This document shows, piece after piece, positions 40,286 through 52,398 of a DNA stretch of 57,132 bases. Numbering within the stretch: the stretch's first letter is position 1; every line of letters begins with the position of its first letter. The DNA is taken from positions 1-57,132 of the forward strand of contig JAWXAX010000190.1 in NCBI GenBank assembly GCA_034439735.1. The letters are read 5' to 3'. This stretch comes from Rhodothermales bacterium. GTDB taxonomy: Bacteria > Bacteroidota > Rhodothermia > Rhodothermales > JAHQVL01. The notes below the pieces were generated by a model. The model saw only the letters and a list, made by a program, of their open reading frames with translations, was not told the origin of the DNA and searched no databases. A program made the translations under genes and the position numbers.

Positions 40286-42427
40286 ATGTACACTGCGTCC
40301 CCCCCGCATCCGCTCGGGAGCGGCCCAGGCCTCGACGCCGACGCCGATCTGATCGACCTCTCTGTCATCATCGTCAATTATAACGTCCGCGAATTCCTGG
40401 AGCAGGCCCTCCGTTCGGTAGAGCGGGCCTGTGCCGACCTCTCCGTCGAAATTTTTGTCGTAGACAATAACTCCGCAGACAGCTCCACGTCGATGGTGCG
40501 CTCCCGCTTTCCGCGGGTGCATCTAATCGCCAACACCGCCAACACCGGTTTCAGCAAGGCCAACAACCAGGCCATTCGGCTGGCGCGCGGCCGCTTTCTC
40601 CTTATCCTGAACCCCGATACGATTGTCCAGGAGGACACGTTGTCGACCATGGTGCGCTTCATGGAGCGCCACCCGGACGCCGGCGCGCTGGGCTGCAAGA
40701 TCCTGAATCCCGACGGCACGTTCGCGCCCGAGAGCCGGCGCGCCTTCCCCACCCCGAGCGTGGCCTTCTACCGGCTCATTGGCCTGAGCAAACTCTTCCC
40801 GAAGAGCCCTGTCTTCGCGCGCTACAACCTGAGTTATATACCGAACACCGAAACGTCGGAGGTAGACGCACTCAGCGGCTCCTGCATGATGGTTCGCCGC
40901 GCCGCCCTCTTGTTCTCACGCGAGCACGCCGAGCGTCTCAGCCAGGAACAGCCGGGGTTTTCCTTCGACGACCTCGAGCACCTGAACGGCTCGGCCGGCG
41001 CCGGCTTACTGGACGAGGACTTCTTTATGTACGGCGAGGATCTGGACTGGTGTTACCGGATCCAGAAAGCCGGCTGGAAGATCTATTATACCCCCGAAAC
41101 GCAGATCATCCATTATAAAGGGGAGAGCACCAAGAAGGGTGAATTGCGCTACGTGCAGCTTTTTTACGGCGCCATGCTGCTGTTCACCGAAAAACATTTT
41201 CAGAGCGGGTACTCCTGGTTGATTCGGCCGTTGCTCCATGTGGGTATCTTCATCCGGGCCGCGGCGCAGGTCCTCATTAATGGCTACCGGCGGTATCGCT
41301 GGCCGATCGTCGACGCCGTCGTGATCTACCTGCTGATGCTGTTGGCCGGCATCCTGCGCTTCTCGTCGCTCGATATCGCGATGCCGCCCCTGTTCCTCAC
41401 CGTCGTCATCCCGATCTACGTCCTCAGCACCGTCGCCGGAACGGCCGCCGCCGGGGGATACCGAGGGTCCGGGCATACCCGCATCCGGCCGATCGTGGTG
41501 GGTAACGTCCTGGGGATCATGACGCTGGCGACAGCCGCCGTCTTTTTACCGAGCATTGCGTTTTCGCGTCTGGTCGTGCTGATCGCGTTTTCGGCCAGCC
41601 TCGCGTTTGGCTTTCTCATGCGGGTCGTATTGCGCGTCCGCCGGCACTTGATGCGCGACGGCTTCCACCGGGCCATCCTGGTGGGCGGCGCCGGGGAAGC
41701 GAACCGGCTGGAACGGACGCTCATCAGCCATCCCAACCCGCCCTGCAAGCTGGTGGGGTATGTATCGTTGGATGACGAGCCGCCCCGGCCGGCGGAACGT
41801 ATGGTGCCCTACCTTGGAGCGCTACGCCATATACGCGATTTTATCCGGCTCCAGCAGATCGACGCCGTCGTATTCGCTTCAAACGGCATCTCGAACCGGG
41901 TCGTCTTCGCACAGATCCAGGAGTTGCGGGACCTTGATATTGAGTTCAAGATCCTCAGCGAAAGCGGCAAACATATCATCGGCCATTCTACCGTAGACGA
42001 CCTCTCCTACCCGACGCGCGTCACGGCCGACTACACGTTGGGTCGGCGCCGAAGCCAGTTGGGCCGGCGGCTTTTCGAGGTGCCTGTAGCCCTCATCGGA
42101 ATAACGTTGCACCCGCTCATCGTGCTGTGCTCGGACACCTGGGAGCAGTCCCGCTGGTTCCGCGGCCTACGCCGGCGGACCCGCCAGTTCCCCGCCGTCC
42201 TCAACGGCAGCCGGTCGCTCGTCGGCTACCGCGTCAACGAACCCATCGCCATCCCCACCGAGTGGAACCTCAAGCCGGGCGTCTTCACCATCACCGAGAC
42301 CCTCGCCACCGACGACCCCGACGACCACGAGATCAACCGCGCCTACTGGTTCTACGTCCGCCACCAGTGCGCCACCCTCGATCTCGACATTATCCTCCAT
42401 ACAATCAAGAAGAAGCTGCAACGCTGA
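40286..42427 (+). CDS. GT2 glycosyltransferase fused to a degenerate phosphoglycosyltransferase-like module
   Basis: 713 residues from the ATG at 40286. Residues 25-280 are a GT2 (rhamnosyltransferase-like) domain: LSVIIVNYNVREFLEQAL, VVDNNSADSS, LILNPDT and DEDFFMYGEDLDWCYRIQKAGW. Residues about 340-450 form several helices, then a Rossmann-like CoA-binding domain as in WbaP/WcaJ enzymes (AILVGGAGEANRLERTL near 463; DAVVFASNGIS). The C-terminal 125 residues match the ends of a bacterial sugar transferase (GRRLFEVPVALIG; LNGSRSLVGYR; LKPGVFTI; RHQCATLDLDIILHTI) but the KFRSM region is deleted and the Asp-Glu catalytic pair is Arg-Arg. So the GT2 half may be active while the PGT half is probably a non-catalytic scaffold or lipid-linked anchor. 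Confidence 0.85.
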   Translation: MYTASPPHPLGSGPGLDADADLIDLSVIIVNYNVREFLEQALRSVERACADLSVEIFVVDNNSADSSTSMVRSRFPRVHLIANTANTGFSKANNQAIRLARGRFLLILNPDTIVQEDTLSTMVRFMERHPDAGALGCKILNPDGTFAPESRRAFPTPSVAFYRLIGLSKLFPKSPVFARYNLSYIPNTETSEVDALSGSCMMVRRAALLFSREHAERLSQEQPGFSFDDLEHLNGSAGAGLLDEDFFMYGEDLDWCYRIQKAGWKIYYTPETQIIHYKGESTKKGELRYVQLFYGAMLLFTEKHFQSGYSWLIRPLLHVGIFIRAAAQVLINGYRRYRWPIVDAVVIYLLMLLAGILRFSSLDIAMPPLFLTVVIPIYVLSTVAGTAAAGGYRGSGHTRIRPIVVGNVLGIMTLATAAVFLPSIAFSRLVVLIAFSASLAFGFLMRVVLRVRRHLMRDGFHRAILVGGAGEANRLERTLISHPNPPCKLVGYVSLDDEPPRPAERMVPYLGALRHIRDFIRLQQIDAVVFASNGISNRVVFAQIQELRDLDIEFKILSESGKHIIGHSTVDDLSYPTRVTADYTLGRRRSQLGRRLFEVPVALIGITLHPLIVLCSDTWEQSRWFRGLRRRTRQFPAVLNGSRSLVGYRVNEPIAIPTEWNLKPGVFTITETLATDDPDDHEINRAYWFYVRHQCATLDLDIILHTIKKKLQR

Positions 42428-42625: not shown

Positions 42626-43699
42626 ATGGCAAAGCCTAGCCCTACGTATCTTTTGGATTTCGAAAAGCCCCTCATCGAGCTCGAACAGAAACTCGATGAA
42701 ATGCGTGCGTTCGATAAAGAAGATCGTTCGATAGACCTCTCCAAAGAGATCGCCGCCCTCTCGAGTCGTGTCGAGGAGTTGCGCGTGTCCATTTATGCCG
42801 ACCTTACCCGGTGGCAACACGTCCAGATCGCGCGGCACCCGCTCCGGCCCTATGCGCTCGACTACATCGAAACGCTGACGCGCGATTTCATCGAGTTGCA
42901 TGGCGACCGCACGTTCGCGGACGATCCAGCCATCGTTGGCGGCTTCGCCCGGTTTCGGGGGAGCCAGTTTGGTTACCGCGATGCCACGATCATGGTCATC
43001 GGTCACCAGAAAGGCCGGGACACAAAAAGCCGTAAATACCGCCGCTTCGGCATGCCGAACCCCGAGGGATACCGCAAGGCGCTCCGGATGATGAAACTCG
43101 CCGAGAAGTTCAACAAACCGGTCGTCACCCTCCTCGATACGCCAGGCGCGTACCCGGGCCTCGAAGCCGAGGAACGCGGCCAGGCGGAGGCTATCGCCCG
43201 GAATCTGTTCGAAATGGCCCGGTTGAAGGTGCCCATCGTCACCATTGTGATCGGCGAGGGGGCTTCCGGCGGGGCACTGGGCATAGGCGTCGGGGACCGG
43301 ATCCTCATGCTCGAAAATGCCTGGTACTCTGTCATTTCACCGGAAAGTTGCTCGTCGATCCTGTGGCGGTCGTGGGATTTCAAGGAAGAGGCAGCCCGTG
43401 CGCTGAAACTGACGGCGCCGGACCTGATCGACGTCCACGTGATCGATGAGATCATCGCCGAACCCATCGGCGGCGCCCACCGCAACCCGCAGCAAGCGTT
43501 CACTTCCGTCGGCTCGGCTATTGCGCGCCACCTGAAAGAACTCGAAACGCGCTCACCGGCCGAACTCATCGCCAGCCGTCTCGAGAAATTCGACGCGATG
43601 GGGGTATTCTATGACCCGATCGCCCCTGCCGGGTCCCATAACGGCCACTCGGACGTCGGGAAAAAAGCGACGTCTCGCCAGAAAAAGCCGGCAGCGTAA
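42626..43699 (+). CDS. accA: Acetyl-CoA carboxylase carboxyltransferase subunit alpha
   Basis: Transfers carboxyl from carboxybiotin to acetyl-CoA as the alpha half of the AccAD heterotetramer, first step of fatty acid synthesis. 357 residues against about 319 in E. coli; the extra length is at the C-terminus (basic, low-complexity [16 protein letters not shown]). Marks: [100 protein letters not shown], and [39 protein letters not shown]. The ATG at 42626 fits the family start; earlier in-frame starts lie in repeat DNA. accD is not nearby. Confidence 0.97.
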
Positions 43700-43724: not shown

Positions 43725-44138
43725 ATGTTCGTCTACACCTATCTCCACCGGGTCCGCTATCGGGAATGCGACCCGATGGGCGTCGTGTATCACACCCACT
43801 ACCTGGATTATTTCGAGGCATCGCGCACGGAAGGCCTCCGCGAACTGGGCCTCGCCTACAAGACCCTCGAGGACGAAGGCATCCGCATGCCGGTGATCGA
43901 CCTCGCCGTCCAGTACAAACGCTCCGCGCAATACGACGATCTACTGGAGATCAAGACCGTTTTCGCCGGCGTCCCGTCCACCCGGATCCGCATCGACTAC
44001 GAGGTGCGCCGGCAGGGTGAGCCCGACCTCCTCGTCTCCGGCCACGTCACCCTCTGCTTCTTCGACGCCGCCCGTAACCGCCCCGTCGTCGCCCCCGCCC
44101 GGATCCGCCGGCTATTTGAAGCGCTCCCTTCGGTCTGA
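43725..44138 (+). CDS. Acyl-CoA thioesterase, YbgC/FadM family
   Basis: 137-residue hotdog-fold thioesterase. The active-site helix region is VRYRECDPMGVVYHTHYLDYFEASRTEGLRELG, with the catalytic Asp (in CDPMG) and following Tyr/His typical of the 4HBT/YbgC group, and the C-terminal TLCFFDAARNRPV is a common ending. Likely acts on short- or medium-chain acyl-CoA, or with the Tol-Pal system as in E. coli YbgC; specificity cannot be read. ATG at 43725, 25 bases after the accA stop, so the two are probably co-transcribed, and 11 bases before nadC. Confidence 0.88.
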   Translation: MFVYTYLHRVRYRECDPMGVVYHTHYLDYFEASRTEGLRELGLAYKTLEDEGIRMPVIDLAVQYKRSAQYDDLLEIKTVFAGVPSTRIRIDYEVRRQGEPDLLVSGHVTLCFFDAARNRPVVAPARIRRLFEALPSV

Positions 44139-44149
44139 CTCCGGCCCGC

Positions 44150-45058
44150 ATGCCTGTGAATTCGCTCCCTCCCTATCTCTCGCTCGCTGAAATGGATCGC
44201 CAGATCGATAACGCGCTGGCTGAAGATGTCGGCCCGGGCGACGTGACCACCAGGGCGACCGTTCCCACCGGCCAGCGAGCCACGGGTCGGTTTATCGCCC
44301 GGCAAGAGGGCGTACTCGCCGGCGTGTTCGTCGCGACGCGTGTCTTTCAGCGGGTCGATCCCGAGGTAGCGATCGACTGGGCCGTCGACGACGGCGCGCC
44401 GATCAAACGCGGCGATGTCCCGGGCGTCATCCGCGGCCGAGCGCACAGTCTGCTCATCGGGGAACGCCTCGCGCTCAACCTGTTGCAACGCATGAGCGGC
44501 ATCGCCACCCTCACGCGCCGCATGGCCGACGCCGCGGCGCCGCATCGGGCTCGCATCCTCGACACTCGAAAAACCGCGCCAGGGCTGCGGTTGCTGGACA
44601 AATGGGCCGTGAAGCTGGGGGGCGGCGAGAACCATCGGATCGGGCTGTACGACCGCATCCTCATCAAAGACAACCACATCGCCGCCGCTGGCGGGATCGC
44701 GACCGTCCTCGCCGCCGCACTCGCCTTCCGAAACCGGCGCCCGGATTCCCTCCTGATCGAAATCGAAGCCCGGACGCTCGACGAAGTGCGCGCCGTACTG
44801 GCCGCCGGCGGGGCCGACATCATCTTGCTCGACAACATGGTCCGCCTCACCGACGCCGGCGCGATAGACACCTCGCTCCTGGAGGAGGCTGTGCGCTTCA
44901 TCGCCGGCCGGCTCGTCACCGAGGCCTCGGGAAACGTGACGCTCGCCACCGTGCCGGCCATCGCCGCGACGGGGGTAGATTTTATATCGAGCGGCGCCCT
45001 GACGCACTCCGTTGAGGCGTTAGACATCGCACTTAAGATCGACCTCACGAACGTTTAA
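44150..45058 (+). CDS. nadC: Nicotinate-nucleotide diphosphorylase (carboxylating)
   Basis: Makes nicotinate mononucleotide from quinolinate and PRPP in NAD synthesis. 302 residues (usual 280-300). Marks: ALAEDVGPGDVTTRATVP, ARQEGVLAGV, LNLLQRMSGIATLTRRM, ILDTRKTAPGLRLLDKWAVKLGGGENHRIGLYDRILIKDNHI, IEIEARTLDEVRAVLAAGGADIILLDNM, EASGNVTLATVPAIAATGVDFISSGALTHSVEALDIALKI. These include the PRPP-binding Asp-Thr-Arg-Lys-Thr and the QPRTase lysines. Its stop codon lies inside a repeat word (AACGTTTAACGTTGAACGT), so the last two residues (Asn-Val) come from the repeat. nadA and nadB are not in the window. Confidence 0.95.
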   Translation: MPVNSLPPYLSLAEMDRQIDNALAEDVGPGDVTTRATVPTGQRATGRFIARQEGVLAGVFVATRVFQRVDPEVAIDWAVDDGAPIKRGDVPGVIRGRAHSLLIGERLALNLLQRMSGIATLTRRMADAAAPHRARILDTRKTAPGLRLLDKWAVKLGGGENHRIGLYDRILIKDNHIAAAGGIATVLAAALAFRNRRPDSLLIEIEARTLDEVRAVLAAGGADIILLDNMVRLTDAGAIDTSLLEEAVRFIAGRLVTEASGNVTLATVPAIAATGVDFISSGALTHSVEALDIALKIDLTNV

Positions 45059-45388: not shown

Positions 45389-45534
45389 GATTTCCCACTT
45401 TTCACGTTCCACTTATCACTTTTCCTTTTACACTTTGCCTTTTACACTTTGCCTTTTTCACTTTGCCTTTTACACTTTGCCTTTTTCACTTTTCCTTTTA
45501 CACTTTGCCTTTTACACTTTGCCTTTTTCCTTTG
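45389..45534. repeat. CACTTTGCC tandem repeat
   Basis: About ten imperfect direct units alternating TTTTACACTTTGCC and TTTTTCACTTTGCC (or ...CACTTTTCC), pyrimidine-rich on this strand. In frame with the ROK kinase it could encode a Phe/Leu/Tyr-rich leader. Ends six bases before the kinase ATG. Confidence 0.8.
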
Positions 45535-45539
45535 AGTCC

Positions 45540-46436
45540 ATGAACACCGACCAACCCTTATACGGAGGCATCGAGGCCGGCGGTACGAAGTTTGTCTGCA
45601 CCATCGCCTCTGGACCCGACGACGTCCGTGCGATCGAGCGGTTTCCGACGACCTCGCCGGCGGAGACGTTTGCCCGTGCGCTGGCGTTTTTTCGTGCGCA
45701 CGACGTGCGTCTGCAAGCCATCGGGATCGCCTCGTTTGGTCCGGTCGACCCCGATCCGTCGTCGCCGTATGTGGGCTACATCACCACGACACCCAAAGCC
45801 GGGTGGGCAAACACCGACTTCGGCGGCTACATCGGAAGGGAACTGGGCGTGCCGGTCGGATTCGACACGGACGTCAACGGCGCCGCGCTTGGGGAGGCGC
45901 GTTGGGGCGCGGCTCGCGGGCTAGACACGGTGCTTTATCTCACGGTGGGCACGGGTATCGGGGGCGGAGCGATTGTTAACGGACGCTGCCTTCATGGACT
46001 CGTCCACCCCGAGATGGGTCACTTGATGCTGCCTCGTGCCGAGGGCGACACGTTCGCCGGCCACTGTCCGTACCACGGGCCGTGCCTGGAAGGGATGGCT
46101 ACCGGTCCGGCGATCGAGGCACGCTGGGGGAAGCCGGCGCCGCAGCTTCCGTCCGACCATCCGGCCTGGGCCATCGAGGCCCATTACCTGGCCATGGCGC
46201 TGGTCAATTATATCCTCACCCTGTCGCCGCAACGCATCGTGATGGGCGGCGGGGTGATGGACCAGCAGCACCTCTTCCCGATGATCCGGTCGCGCGTCCA
46301 GAAGGCGCTCAACGGGTACGTCCAGCATCCCGCCATCCTGCAGAACATGGACGCGTACATTGTCCCGCCCGGCCTGGGCGACCGGGCCGGCGTCTTGGGA
46401 GCGATCGCCCTTGCGATGGACGCATTGAACGTTTAA
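45540..46436 (+). CDS. ROK family sugar kinase (fructokinase-like)
   Basis: 298 residues. ATP-binding loop [16 protein letters not shown] at the N-terminus, sugar site with [19 protein letters not shown] (catalytic Asp), phosphate loop [10 protein letters not shown], and zinc-site region [11 protein letters not shown]...[30 protein letters not shown], which is characteristic of the ScrK/GmuE-type fructokinases of the ROK family. Phosphorylates a hexose, probably fructose, in the cytosol. ATG at 45540 is chosen; the frame remains open upstream through the CACTTTGCC repeat for 35 more codons, beginning at a non-ATG codon at 45435. Its stop lies in an AACGTTTAA word, as in nadC. Followed 52 bases later by the polyprenyl glycosylphosphotransferase. 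Confidence 0.9.
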
Positions 46437-46488: not shown

Positions 46489-47877
46489 ATGCTACAGGAG
46501 CAAAGCCGGCTTTTTCAGCGCATGCTGTTCGCGGCGGACCTGGTGATGGTCACGCTGGGCTGGATCGTCGCGTGGTTCATCCGCTTCCAGCTCCTCACCC
46601 CGCCCGAGTGGCTCCCCCTCGAGCGCTATATGGCGATTTTCCCGTGGGTGCTCATTCTGTCGATGGGCGTCTTCACCCTCTCGGGCCTGTATGCGCCGGA
46701 CCGCGCGCAGCGGCTCCCGAGGCTCATCTTCACCGTCGCCCGCGCCGTCTTACTGGGGCTGCTCATCGTCGCCGCGTCGCTTTCGTTTTACCGTGCGCTC
46801 TATTTCTCGCGCCTGCACATGATCCTCTTCGGCCTGCTGACGCCGGGGCTCATGATCGTAGTGCGCGTGATCCTGTTCACCCTGATTCGCCGGGCGCGGG
46901 CGCGGGGGAAGTACCAGCGGAGGGTGTTGATCGCCGGCGCGGGTAAAGCTGGCCGGCGGCTACAGAATGCCTTCGAGGCCTACCCGTGGATGGGCCTCCA
47001 GGTGGTGGGTTTTTTGGATGACCACAAAACCGAGACGGATGTCATCGGCCGCGTGGAAGATGCTTCAGCCATCGTGGATCGATTCGCGGCGGAGGGGAAG
47101 TCCATCGACTACATGTACATCGCCCTCCCCCTCGCCGCCACCGGGAAGATCGAGCAGATGGTGAACGTGCTCTCGACCCGGCTGACCCACGTCTGCCTGG
47201 TGCCGGATCTGCTCCAGTTCGACCTCCTGAACAGCCGCGTGACCGACATCGACGGGCTGCCCGTTTTGCATCTCATCGACGAGGCCCCGGTCGAGTTCCG
47301 GCGGTTCGTGAAGCGGGCTGTGGACGTCGTTTTTTCCGCCCTCTTCCTACTGATCGCCGCGCCGGCGATGCTAGTCATCGCGGTCGGCGTCAAGCTCTCC
47401 TCCCCCGGCCCCGTGTTTTACCGCCAGCAGCGGATGGGGCTGAATGGGCATGTGTTCGACATGCTCAAGTTCCGTTCGATGCCCGTAAACGTCGAGTCCA
47501 CCTCGGGCCCCGTATGGGCGAAAGCCGGCGAGGCGCGAGCGACGCGATTCGGCTCATTCCTCCGCAAATCGTCGCTTGACGAGTTGCCTCAGTTCATCAA
47601 CGTGCTCAAGGGGGATATGTCCGTCGTCGGCCCCCGCCCCGAGCGGCCGGTGTTTATCGAGGCATTCCGGGGGAAGGTGCCGGGGTACATGCTGCGCCAT
47701 AAAATGAAGGCCGGCATCACCGGCTGGGCCCAGGTGAACGGGCTCCGCGGCGATACCTCGATCGAGCGCCGGATCGAGTACGACCTGTACTACATCCAGA
47801 ACTGGTCCATCGGGCTGGATGTAAAGATCATGTGGCTGACGCTGTGGCGGGGGTTTGTGAGTGAGCATGCGTATTAA
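46489..47877 (+). CDS. Polyprenyl glycosylphosphotransferase (WcaJ/WbaP type)
   Basis: 462 residues. Transfers a sugar-1-phosphate from a nucleotide sugar to undecaprenyl phosphate, the first step of exopolysaccharide or O-antigen unit assembly. Four N-terminal helices (about 12-130), a Rossmann-like CoA-binding domain (RRVLIAGAGKAGRRLQNAF, 144-162), then the bacterial sugar transferase domain from about 275: KRAVDVVFSALFLL, SSPGPVFYRQQRMG, KFRSM (327-331), the catalytic pair D364-E365 in SSLDELPQFINVLKGDMSVVGPRPER, and KMKAGITGWAQVNG. All key residues are intact. It contrasts with the degenerate copy inside the GT2 fusion at 40286-42427. No Wzx/Wzy genes are in the window. Confidence 0.93.
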   Translation: MLQEQSRLFQRMLFAADLVMVTLGWIVAWFIRFQLLTPPEWLPLERYMAIFPWVLILSMGVFTLSGLYAPDRAQRLPRLIFTVARAVLLGLLIVAASLSFYRALYFSRLHMILFGLLTPGLMIVVRVILFTLIRRARARGKYQRRVLIAGAGKAGRRLQNAFEAYPWMGLQVVGFLDDHKTETDVIGRVEDASAIVDRFAAEGKSIDYMYIALPLAATGKIEQMVNVLSTRLTHVCLVPDLLQFDLLNSRVTDIDGLPVLHLIDEAPVEFRRFVKRAVDVVFSALFLLIAAPAMLVIAVGVKLSSPGPVFYRQQRMGLNGHVFDMLKFRSMPVNVESTSGPVWAKAGEARATRFGSFLRKSSLDELPQFINVLKGDMSVVGPRPERPVFIEAFRGKVPGYMLRHKMKAGITGWAQVNGLRGDTSIERRIEYDLYYIQNWSIGLDVKIMWLTLWRGFVSEHAY

Positions 47878-47965: not shown

Positions 47966-48415
47966 ATGAGAATCTACCTCGACACGTGCAGTCTGCAGCG
48001 CCCTCTGGACGACCGATCGCAGCTTCGCATTCGCCAGGAGGCGGAAGCCATCCTCTATGTATTGGAACGCATCCATTCAGGCACATGCGGTCTCGTGTCG
48101 TCAGAAGTCCTCGACTTCGAGATTGCAAAAAACCCGGATCGGACGCGTTTGGATTTCGCCTCGGAAACCGTATCAACGGCTGAAATCAGCGTACTGGTTA
48201 CCGCCGAAATCGAGAAGCGGGCGCGCGAGTTAAACCAAAAAGGCGTCGATACGTTGGATAGTTTACATCTGGCCTGCGCCGAAGCGGGCGGTGCCAGTTA
48301 TTTCTGCACGAGCGACGATGCGTTACTCAGAAAAGCCAAACGCGAGCTCACAGGGGTAAAAGCCGTTTCCCCTCTGGAACTCGCACAGGAATTGGAATTA
48401 TGGGAGTCCCGGTAA
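47966..48415 (+). CDS. PIN-domain protein, probable toxin
   Basis: 149 residues. PIN (VapC-like) fold with acidic active-site residues: D6 in IYLDTCSLQRPLDD, E47/E52 in SSEVLDFEI, D98 in DTLDSLHLACAEAG, and D117/D118 in CTSDDALLRKAK. PIN proteins of this 'YLDTCSLQRPLDD' subgroup are magnesium-dependent RNases that usually have a small antitoxin gene next to them. The following 70-residue gene overlaps its 3' end by 16 bases and is the likely partner. Gene order (toxin first) is unusual for VapBC. Target RNA unknown. Local base composition is like the neighbours. Confidence 0.82.
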   Translation: MRIYLDTCSLQRPLDDRSQLRIRQEAEAILYVLERIHSGTCGLVSSEVLDFEIAKNPDRTRLDFASETVSTAEISVLVTAEIEKRARELNQKGVDTLDSLHLACAEAGGASYFCTSDDALLRKAKRELTGVKAVSPLELAQELELWESR

Positions 48416-49125: not shown

Positions 49126-52089
49126 CTATTTCACCCGCACTACCGTGCGGCTCTCGGTATACCCGTTCGCTTGCAAGCGCACCATGTATACCCCGGCCGC
49201 CGCCGGCATGCCGCTCTCAGCCGTCCCATCCCAGATGCTCGTCCAACTTCCGGCCGGCATGGCGCCGTTGTCGAGGAGTACGTTCACGCGCTGACCGAAC
49301 ATGTTGAAGATTTCGATCCGCACCGGACTCTCCTCGGGCAGTTGATACGCGATCGTTGTTGTGCTGTTGAATGGGTTGGGGTAGATGGACCCCAGCGCAA
49401 AGCGGTCTGGCACATCAGATGCCAATGCGTAGGGTTGATCCGCGGCTTTTGCTGCCACCCCGGTAACAACCACGAAGGTACCTTGTGGGTAGAACTCTCC
49501 CGTGTCCGGCGCGCCATTCCAGATGTTCGGCGCGATGGTCAGGTCGCCGCTGACGTAGCCGCTGCTTATGCCTTCCACCAGCGTGTCGATCCCCTGAAGC
49601 ATGGTCACGGTATCGCTGGTAAAGTCGACTTCCGCGAGGAGGCGGTCACTTTCAACGGGTGTAAAGGCGTAGTAATCCCGATTGGTGTCGTATTGCCACT
49701 GCCCGGAAAAACGTACGACAATCAGGTGATCTGCCGCCCAGACGCTGGGAGGATTGCCGGCAAAGCGTTCATGTAAATCCTGCTCGCTATACATGATATA
49801 GCCGGTACCGGTAGCACCGTCCTGGCCTGAAATCCCTCTTTTGAGATCTCCCAGCAGCAAAATCGCCGGCTCACTTTCGGTAACGATCCAGGCAAAGGTT
49901 TCGCTATCCGTGGCCCCGTCCGCGTCGCTTACCGTTACCGTTACGGTATAGCTGCCGGCGGTATGGGCCGTGCCTGAAAGGATGGCGCCGGAAAGTGTGA
50001 GGCCATCGGGCAAACCCGAGGCGGTATAGGTTAGCGGATCGCCATCGGCATCGCTGGCACTCAGTGTCATACTGACCACATCATGCAACTCATTGGCCTG
50101 GTCACCAATGGCATTAAGCACCGGTGGCCAGTTATCCGCTTCAAAAACAAGGGCCACTTCCGTTCCTTCCACATAGAATTCGCCCATATCAGGGCTCCCA
50201 TTCCACACATTGGGCGTGATGACCAGGTCGCCGGAGGTATAGCCGCTACCGATTCCTTCTATCGTGTCTAATGCTCCGACCAGCAACGTGGCCGTGTCGT
50301 TGGTGAAGTCCAGCTCAGCCAACAGGCGGTCGGTGGATCGGGGCGTGAAGGCGTAGTAATCGCGGTTGGTGTCATACTCCCACTGACCATTTTTATATCG
50401 AACCACGATCAGGTGATCGGCCGCCCAGAAACTGGGTGGAAAGGCCGCAAAGCGGGTCTTCATATTTTCTTCCGAGTACATCATGTACCCGGTACCCGTT
50501 GCGCCATCCTGACCGGAAACGCCTCGTTTCAAATCTCCCAGTGGAATGGTTACCGGTTCGTCCGGTGGCTCGACGGGCGCGGACACGACAGCTTCAAAAG
50601 GTGCCGCGGGTAACCCCTCGCTGTTGTACAGGTTTGGGTTGATGGGATTATTTTCCCAGGCATAACGAACGAGCACCGGCTCCGGTACGTCATCGTGCCA
50701 TACAACAATCCGGTCACCCTCGATAGCGGCTTCTCCCCTTACGTAGGTGCCATCTTCCCCCAGGAGGGTAAAGCTGCCCGGCACACCATCTGGATCCGCA
50801 ACGAATCCGGCGCCTACCTGGTCGTAATGGATACTCACTCGCCCGTCCTCATGGAAGACATCGCCTGTATGGAGTGGGCCGGAATAAATGATATGCTCTC
50901 CATACACCATCTTGCGGGCGATCAAAGAGAGCCGGTAGCCAACGGGTTCTTTATCCGCAGGATGGATATTGGTAGGATCACCGACATCAATGGTGATGGC
51001 CTGGCCCGTATTGGGAAGTACCCGTACAGCATCTTGACTTGCGCGAAAGAGGGGCCACAGGTGTCCTTGAGGAGGAATCGGACCGGGCACCCCGCCAAAG
51101 TTCGGGAGCTGGACCCAGAGAAAGGGGAGATCTCCGAGGCCCCAGATGCTGCGCCAACCCTGAATCAGCGTCTGAAATTGTGAAGCGTAGGCGGTCACAT
51201 CCGCCAGCGTTGCGTTATTGGATTCACCCTGGTACCACAGGAAGCCTTTAACCGGGAAAGGAAGCAATGGGTGGATCATCGCGTTGTAGGCCATGGTAGG
51301 TTGCCGATGAGCCGCGCCGTCGCCAAGTATGACATCTTGTTCGTCGTAGCCCAGCATCCCCTCACTCATCCAGGTCTCGATACGACTGCCTCCGTAGGTA
51401 GCATTGATGATTCCAATGGGTACATCAACATGTTCGCGAAGATGTTTTGCAAAAAAGTAACCGACCGCGCTAAAGTTACCTACGAAACTGGGTGTCGCCT
51501 CAGTCCAGGAACTGCTAGCCGGCAATGCACTCTTGGGCTCGCTATTTAGCGAACTCGAGACCTTGAACTGACGAATCCGCGGGTCATTGGCGGCAGCAAT
51601 CACGTCAGAAGCGATCGGGAGCTGGCTGACTTTCCACTCCATGTTGGACTGCCCCGAGGCGAGCCATACGTCGCCGATGTACATATCTGTTAGCGTAATC
51701 GTTTCCGCTAACGAGGCAATCACCATGGTGTAAGGTCCGCCGGCATTCATAGCCTGACAATCAACCCGCCAGTTGCCATCGGCTTCCGCGACGGTCGTCT
51801 CGCTGATTCCGTTCAACGAGACCGTGACGCTAGCCCCGGCCAGGGCCGTGCCCCAGACGGGAAAAACCACATCACGCTGCAGCACAGCCCCGGATGTAAA
51901 AATAGGGGGAAGTAGCAGTGGGGCACTGACAGCCTGTGCGACCTCGCCTGAACGATCAGCCACCCCAAGAGCCGTTGATCGACGCAACGCCAGATCATCC
52001 GGGTTGTGATTGACGGGATAGGCTTGAGCGGGGAGCCCGAATAAAACAACCAGGATAAGGGTACTCATCCAGGTTAGTGAGCTGCTCAT
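49126..52089 (-). CDS. Secreted sialate O-acetylesterase with repeat modules and T9SS-like sorting domain
   Basis: 987 residues from the ATG at 52089. Signal peptide (1-23), SGNH-type sialate O-acetylesterase domain (about 60-480): catalytic S146 in SGQSNMEW, WYQGESN and NIHPADK with His376 and Asp378. Residues 517-650 and 746-877 are two copies of an unassigned module (GDLKRG-SGQDGATGTGY-MYSE...AADHLIVVR...DYYAFTP...DRLLAE-DF) separated by a cadherin/He_PIG-like Ig fold (652-738). The end (895-987) is a sorting domain of FlgD/T9SS type (YPNPFNSTTTI, GVYMVRLQANG). It removes O-acetyl groups from sialic acids or related sugars outside the cell. An upstream frame to 52188 is not needed. Confidence 0.88.
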   Translation of the reverse strand: MSSSLTWMSTLILVVLFGLPAQAYPVNHNPDDLALRRSTALGVADRSGEVAQAVSAPLLLPPIFTSGAVLQRDVVFPVWGTALAGASVTVSLNGISETTVAEADGNWRVDCQAMNAGGPYTMVIASLAETITLTDMYIGDVWLASGQSNMEWKVSQLPIASDVIAAANDPRIRQFKVSSSLNSEPKSALPASSSWTEATPSFVGNFSAVGYFFAKHLREHVDVPIGIINATYGGSRIETWMSEGMLGYDEQDVILGDGAAHRQPTMAYNAMIHPLLPFPVKGFLWYQGESNNATLADVTAYASQFQTLIQGWRSIWGLGDLPFLWVQLPNFGGVPGPIPPQGHLWPLFRASQDAVRVLPNTGQAITIDVGDPTNIHPADKEPVGYRLSLIARKMVYGEHIIYSGPLHTGDVFHEDGRVSIHYDQVGAGFVADPDGVPGSFTLLGEDGTYVRGEAAIEGDRIVVWHDDVPEPVLVRYAWENNPINPNLYNSEGLPAAPFEAVVSAPVEPPDEPVTIPLGDLKRGVSGQDGATGTGYMMYSEENMKTRFAAFPPSFWAADHLIVVRYKNGQWEYDTNRDYYAFTPRSTDRLLAELDFTNDTATLLVGALDTIEGIGSGYTSGDLVITPNVWNGSPDMGEFYVEGTEVALVFEADNWPPVLNAIGDQANELHDVVSMTLSASDADGDPLTYTASGLPDGLTLSGAILSGTAHTAGSYTVTVTVSDADGATDSETFAWIVTESEPAILLLGDLKRGISGQDGATGTGYIMYSEQDLHERFAGNPPSVWAADHLIVVRFSGQWQYDTNRDYYAFTPVESDRLLAEVDFTSDTVTMLQGIDTLVEGISSGYVSGDLTIAPNIWNGAPDTGEFYPQGTFVVVTGVAAKAADQPYALASDVPDRFALGSIYPNPFNSTTTIAYQLPEESPVRIEIFNMFGQRVNVLLDNGAMPAGSWTSIWDGTAESGMPAAAGVYMVRLQANGYTESRTVVRVK

Positions 52090-52398
52090 ATATAAATCAG
52101 GCAAAAGGGACAGGCTGCCCCGTGACCAGATGGTATGGGTAATGCAAGAGAGGAAGGGAGACTTGAAATGACACTTTGGGATCAGCAATGAAGCTAGCCA
52201 AACGTGCGATAGTCATGGAGGGGGAATGGATGAACCTCCATTCATTTTTGGCGCTTACTGCTACACTTCTCCGCTTCAATCTCGGAATGACGGGGTGCAT
52301 GTTCACGGGTCACGGCGTCTCTGCGACAATACGTCCGGCGCCGAGCCGGCCACGTTGTCCATGCGAGGTGCGACCTGAAATGGGGGGTGCCCGAAGTC

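Follow-up and report, generated by a model that had tools for sequence, protein, structure and literature searches.

It has long been asked whether the enzymes that start lipid-linked glycans and those that extend them work together in physical complexes, and the question is raised by an open reading frame (40286..42427, + strand, ATG at 40286) in the 57,132-nucleotide stretch of Rhodothermales DNA analysed here, which we refer to as the window. The frame encodes a 713-residue protein in which a family 2 glycosyltransferase (GT2) is joined to a region related to phosphoglycosyltransferases (PGTs), and the preliminary description of this gene had proposed that the PGT module is catalytically dead. 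Such a fusion, in which the membrane body of a PGT is kept, its chemistry is removed and an active PGT adjoins in many genomes, would let that question be tested on a concrete protein that is easy to mutate. What the second half of the protein is, and what it might do for the first, are the questions considered here. Our comparisons indicate that this is a real pseudo-PGT fusion, conserved and ancient. A genome search found a single copy in the source genome, in which Bac_transf matches number eight.

The N-terminal part is a GT2 catalytic domain (residues 23–283; 40352..41134, + strand) recognised by Pfam (Glycos_transf_2, PF00535, at residues 26–208, 1e-25), by conservation among homologues and by Foldseek, the best matches to the model of the whole fusion being GT2 structures; against viral proteins, too, only GT2 folds were matched. 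Residues conserved across the homologues (in sets of 119 and of 93) are D60, N109-P-D-T112, E251-D252-x-D254 and H276-Y-K-G-E280, and the GT-A fold, the donor/metal NPD motif and the ED/D catalytic-base region are thus all present. There follow a linker helix and a four-TM-helix bundle (residues 313–457; 41222..41656, + strand), assigned from AF2 helices at 313–361, 368–388, 401–420 and 428–457 and from a match to WbaP, with S427-R428 invariant in this region of the homologue alignment. The next domain is Rossmann-like, the DUF of large PGTs (residues 460–575; 41663..42010, + strand); it is supported by conservation, by AF2 and by a Pfam match to CoA_binding_3 (PF13727, residues 401–554, 2e-11), and includes a short hairpin carrying conserved I565-G566. 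A predicted re-entrant membrane helix of the PGT domain (residues 589–618; 42050..42139, + strand), placed by conservation, hhalign and spacing and predicted by AF2 as a helix at 591–618, keeps the motif K/R-R-x2-D/E-...-P610. Directly after it, at residues 619–634 (42140..42187, + strand), hhalign gaps and spacing place the site of a missing catalytic core of ~60 residues, reaching from KFRSM to Asp-Glu. The remaining residues (635–713; 42188..42424, + strand) are what is left of the PGT domain's C-terminal tail, identified by Pfam, conservation and a match to PglC, in which G647, Y690 and D699 are conserved. AF2 modelled the whole fusion with a pLDDT of 90.4 and the C-terminal half alone with 89.7.

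The preliminary description had confined the likeness to PGTs to the C-terminal 125 residues, which proved to be too little. When a profile of fusion C-termini was aligned by hhalign with 38 intact PGTs, comprising that of the window and others encoded at fusion loci, the alignment covered residues 332–711 (probability 99.9, E 2e-36), so that the homology spans about 380 residues and the whole large-PGT scaffold; as judged from these profiles, the resemblance is far above chance. Individual family models recover it in parts: Bac_transf (Pfam) matches the tail only (634–711), scoring 20 bits where its threshold is 27, and residues 342–612 match the NCBIfam profiles EPS_sugtrans and WcaJ with scores far below their thresholds. 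Searched against the PDB, the profile of the whole family matched WbaP chains over the TM bundle and Rossmann-like domain (E about 1e-20), and PglC only past its dyad (chain residues 99–184). The model of the C-terminal half had a sole PDB match at E <= 0.001, S. enterica WbaP 8t53 (1.9e-7, TM about 0.43). In the fusion, as in large PGTs, the four-TM bundle and PF13727 domain precede the PGT domain, and the earlier view that the Rossmann-like (CoA-binding) domain and the helices are kept agrees with the PF13727, AF2 and WbaP results. Given the hhalign, PDB-profile and AF2/fold matches, we regard the C-terminal half of the fusion as the entire scaffold of a large PGT from which the catalytic core is missing.

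The intact comparison is at hand in the window itself, where a WcaJ-like large PGT (46489..47877, + strand) with a full-length WcaJ/EPS_sugtrans score carries KFRSM at residues 327–331 (47467–47481, + strand) and, as had been described, the dyad D364-E365 (47578–47583, + strand). Aligned with intact PGTs by hhalign, the fusions have both KFRSM and Asp-Glu in deletions (44 and 8 columns). The spacing from the helix-breaking Pro610 to Gly647, in the VG of ‘SLVG’, is 18–49 residues (median 28) in 93 fusions and 87–90 residues in the 38 intact PGTs, all 38 of which have the Asp-Glu pair. A hidden acidic pair serving the PGT active site was considered and rejected: only two of 93 relatives have an acidic pair within the shortened catalytic stretch, and in both it lies away from the dyad position. 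Nor do the fusion relatives conserve the VGPRP arginine, and no intact PGT domain was found at 1e-10 in any fusion frame of the homologue set. Of the features that define Bac_transf (PF02397), the dyad, KFRSM and a full-length catalytic core are all absent, and the re-entrant KR...P helix pattern is present, K/R-R-x2-D/E-...-P being identical in fusions and intact PGTs. Loss of the KFRSM segment was therefore correctly described, but the proposed replacement of Asp-Glu by Arg-Arg was not: the dyad falls within the ~60-residue deletion, the apparent Arg-Arg at its position arises from gap placement, and relatives have G/R/Q and F/R/L at residues 630–631, so that the pair is not kept by homologues. 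The larger claim, that a complete GT2 is tied to a PGT scaffold predicted to be unable to transfer sugar phosphate, is upheld by the intact GT2 motifs and the deleted core; neither another acidic pair at the dyad position nor a homologue with an intact PGT domain was found, the two observations that the preliminary description had named as telling against it. By the evidence of these alignments, then, the C-terminal half is a pseudo-PGT from which the catalytic motifs of PGTs have been lost.

That homologues retain the fusion, as anticipated, is apparent from 119 full-length proteins of the same architecture from Rhodothermota, Bacteroidota, Ignavibacteriota and KSB1, and a GTDB scan added named Bacteroidales, Flavobacteriales, Ignavibacteria and KSB1 records. 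Matches at E 1e-40 were obtained in 124 of 198 genomes of a phylum sample, an upper bound for the fusion as some matches are GT2-only, and in 86 of 114 genomes of the window's order. In a tree of 74 GT2 domains all 57 fusions formed one clade (support 96/98), which indicates that the fusion arose once, anciently. Mean pairwise identity among fusions is 61% in the GT2 domain and 27–30% in the other regions. Three shorter proteins from one family of the window's order (f3) are nested within the fusion clade in the GT2 tree; they keep the GT2 domain and have neither TM bundle nor PGT tail, and from their position in the tree this loss of the membrane part is secondary. One such natural truncation lies at L022:1147-2400 (minus strand), with others at L023 and L024, and each retains a short, reduced stretch whose likeness to the Rossmann-like domain was judged by eye.

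The fusion gene is followed in the window, on the + strand, by accA, encoding the acetyl-CoA carboxylase alpha subunit (42626..43699, inferred start ATG 42626), and by a gene for a YbgC-like thioesterase (43725..44138, inferred start ATG 43725), both conserved neighbours, and then by nadC, a frequent one (44150..45058). In the window's order the PGT comes after accA, ybgC and nadC; it is syntenic within the order, lying 2.5–10.4 kb downstream of the fusion on the same strand in at least 35 of 64 genomes, and is the candidate partner. Across the phylum sample an intact PGT with Asp-Glu was located 0.7–3.6 kb from the fusion, always on the same strand, at 27 of 40 loci and in 12 of 20 families, against a chance expectation that we estimate ourselves at about one per cent, taking genomes of roughly 4 Mb to encode a few PGTs each. 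The usual core order at these loci is PGT, Dpm1-like GT2, fusion, accA, ybgC, wzx, and a fuller recurrent order, in which several neighbours were identified by Pfam/NCBIfam and others by eye, is glycosyltransferases, PGT, Dpm1-like GT2, fusion, accA, ybgC, (nadC), wzx, dut, dnaE, fabI. Two families of the same class (f11 and f12) have the fusion upstream of tgt and PGT-DPM1-accA. The lipid-glycan core (PGT, Dpm1-like GT2, fusion and wzx) sits among accA, ybgC, dut, dnaE and fabI in many families, for example at L131, L160–L162, L164 and L172.

The expectation that homologues would occur with an intact PGT therefore held at these phylum loci but not at many in Bacteroidales and Flavobacteriales, where the fusion adjoins recR, E2, dnaQ or GNAT genes with no PGT nearby. 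All fusion genomes checked for PF02397 had at least one intact PGT, as did genomes without the fusion. Seven genomes of family f2 have the fusion but no WcaJ closely orthologous to that of the window, and in the f7 genomes listed the WcaJ orthologue and the fusion are both absent, apart from a partial GT2-only match in G245; this co-absence represents a single lineage. In a mirror-tree analysis, the partial correlation with the PGT, accA being held constant, was 0.63 for the C-terminal half and 0.15 for the GT2 domain; over a common 15 loci, again given accA, the C-terminus correlated at 0.67 with the operon PGT and at 0.60 with a Wzx control. Because the control scores almost as high, co-divergence was left out as evidence of contact. 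The suggestion that the GT2 is held next to the real PGT thus gains from gene order and is weakened by the PGT-free loci and by a correlation so near that of Wzx.

Our working interpretation, of moderate confidence, is that the fusion acts early in Wzx-type, Und-PP-linked glycan assembly, as an inverting GT2 docked at the membrane by its pseudo-PGT. The intact large PGT would start the lipid-linked glycan and so make the undecaprenyl-pyrophosphate acceptor, onto which the GT2 half would move a nucleotide-activated sugar, and Wzx would be the flippase of the pathway. The pseudo-PGT, with its four-helix bundle, Rossmann-like domain and predicted re-entrant helix of the cytoplasmic leaflet, would keep the GT2 by lipid binding at the bilayer where Und-PP-sugar emerges; the data suggest that the dead half may guide or hold the growing lipid-linked sugar chain. 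Linkage to an active PGT and to Wzx, the GT2 motifs and the single clade were counted in favour of this docking; the PGT-free loci of Bacteroidales and Flavobacteriales, the f2 genomes, fast C-terminal divergence and the f3 loss were counted against it. The fusion would then be a glycan-initiation pseudoenzyme spread over a superphylum.

Active PGT and pseudo-PGT might also pair, in the way that large PGTs do with each other. WbaP is a homodimer joined through its TM bundle and the same DUF (PMC10942596), and EpsZ activity is raised by a partner protein that is believed to stabilize the EpsZ dimer (PMC12802240). Dimerization of large PGTs through these two regions and the precedent of the EpsZ partner make a mixed dimer a reasonable hypothesis, and by this analogy physical pairing of the fusion with an active PGT is plausible. 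More tentatively, and we think it rather unlikely, a mixed dimer of pseudo-PGT and operon PGT would hand Und-PP-sugar straight to the fused GT2 and would have been kept since the superphylum ancestor. Steps one and two of glycan assembly would then be coupled by a dead enzyme, in an initiation complex that is built in.

The fast divergence of the C-terminal half, the Bacteroidales and Flavobacteriales fusions without a nearby PGT, and the secondary loss of the membrane part in f3, with GT2 and a reduced Rossmann-like stretch retained, would also be expected if the bundle and re-entrant helix had been recruited as a membrane anchor only, with no specific PGT or lipid role. For a plain anchor, however, the Rossmann-like domain, the KRxxD...P helix and the tail would be superfluous, yet they persist clade-wide, and the one-strand linkage to a PGT recurs; we doubt this explanation, while giving it appreciable weight. 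Retention of the Rossmann-like domain would equally fit a regulatory pseudo-PGT that responds to uridine nucleotides or UDP-sugars by adjusting the activity of the GT2 or, in mixed dimers, of the active PGT, since the isolated WbaP DUF is stabilized by UMP, UDP and UTP (PMC10942596) and dimer-stabilizing partners can set the activity of a large PGT (PMC12802240). Identity in this domain averages only about 30%, nucleotide binding here is putative, and we consider such a role distinctly improbable. Persistence of the re-entrant helix and tail could be taken to mean that this half is still a PGT, cryptically active through other residues, but with ~60 core residues including KFRSM and Asp-Glu gone in the relatives, the PRP arginine not conserved and no relative matching an intact Bac_transf domain, this is barely credible. 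That the gene is just one copy, decayed or mis-joined, is refuted by 119 full-length homologues in one clade with conserved motifs and gene order.

Large monotopic PGTs (WbaP, WcaJ, EPS_sugtrans TIGR03025) share with the fusion the four-TM bundle, PF13727 domain, re-entrant helix and tail; the fusion differs in lacking the KFRSM/Asp-Glu core, in the unconserved PRP arginine and in having a GT2 in front. A superfamily survey by O'Toole and colleagues is said to have defined the Bi-PGTs. These bifunctional monotopic PGT fusions, named in PMC10942596, likewise combine a PGT-type module with another glycan enzyme, but their PGT domain is catalytic whereas that of the fusion is predicted to be dead. 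Lacking the required catalysis, the fusion is neither a PGT nor a Bi-PGT. Its GT2 half resembles COG1216-type GT2s (rhamnosyltransferase TIGR01556) in its GT-A fold, NPDT and ED/D motifs and expected lipid-linked acceptors; WbbL-like enzymes are further counterparts, and none of these is known to carry a fused PGT scaffold. The N-terminal part of PglF-like UDP-sugar dehydratases also places a four-TM bundle and the same kind of DUF on a non-PGT enzyme (PMC10942596), without the re-entrant helix and PGT tail of the fusion. A possible homologue with published work, FpgA of Flavobacterium psychrophilum (PMC4293000), was set aside because the fragment used to complement it, 1105 bp long, is shorter than the fusion needs. 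No description of the fusion family was found in the open-licence papers searched, and annotation pipelines are likely to call its members plain GT2s or polyprenyl glycosylphosphotransferases.

Some further features of the window were noted around the intact PGT. A 14-bp tandem repeat, CACTTTGCCTTTTA, is present in 7.9 copies at 45417–45527, upstream of a ROK kinase gene, and because of it the TTG-started frame at 45435–46436 probably begins too early, ATG 45540 being the likelier start. A PIN-domain protein is encoded directly 3′ of the intact PGT (47966–48415), and no partner antitoxin was identified. Beyond it, on the minus strand, a SASA-type acetylesterase (49126–52188) has Ig-like domains, a C-terminal FlgD_ig/Por_Secre_tail region and an internal duplication, the repeated unit (GDLKRG.SGQDGATGTGY) being about 100 residues long.
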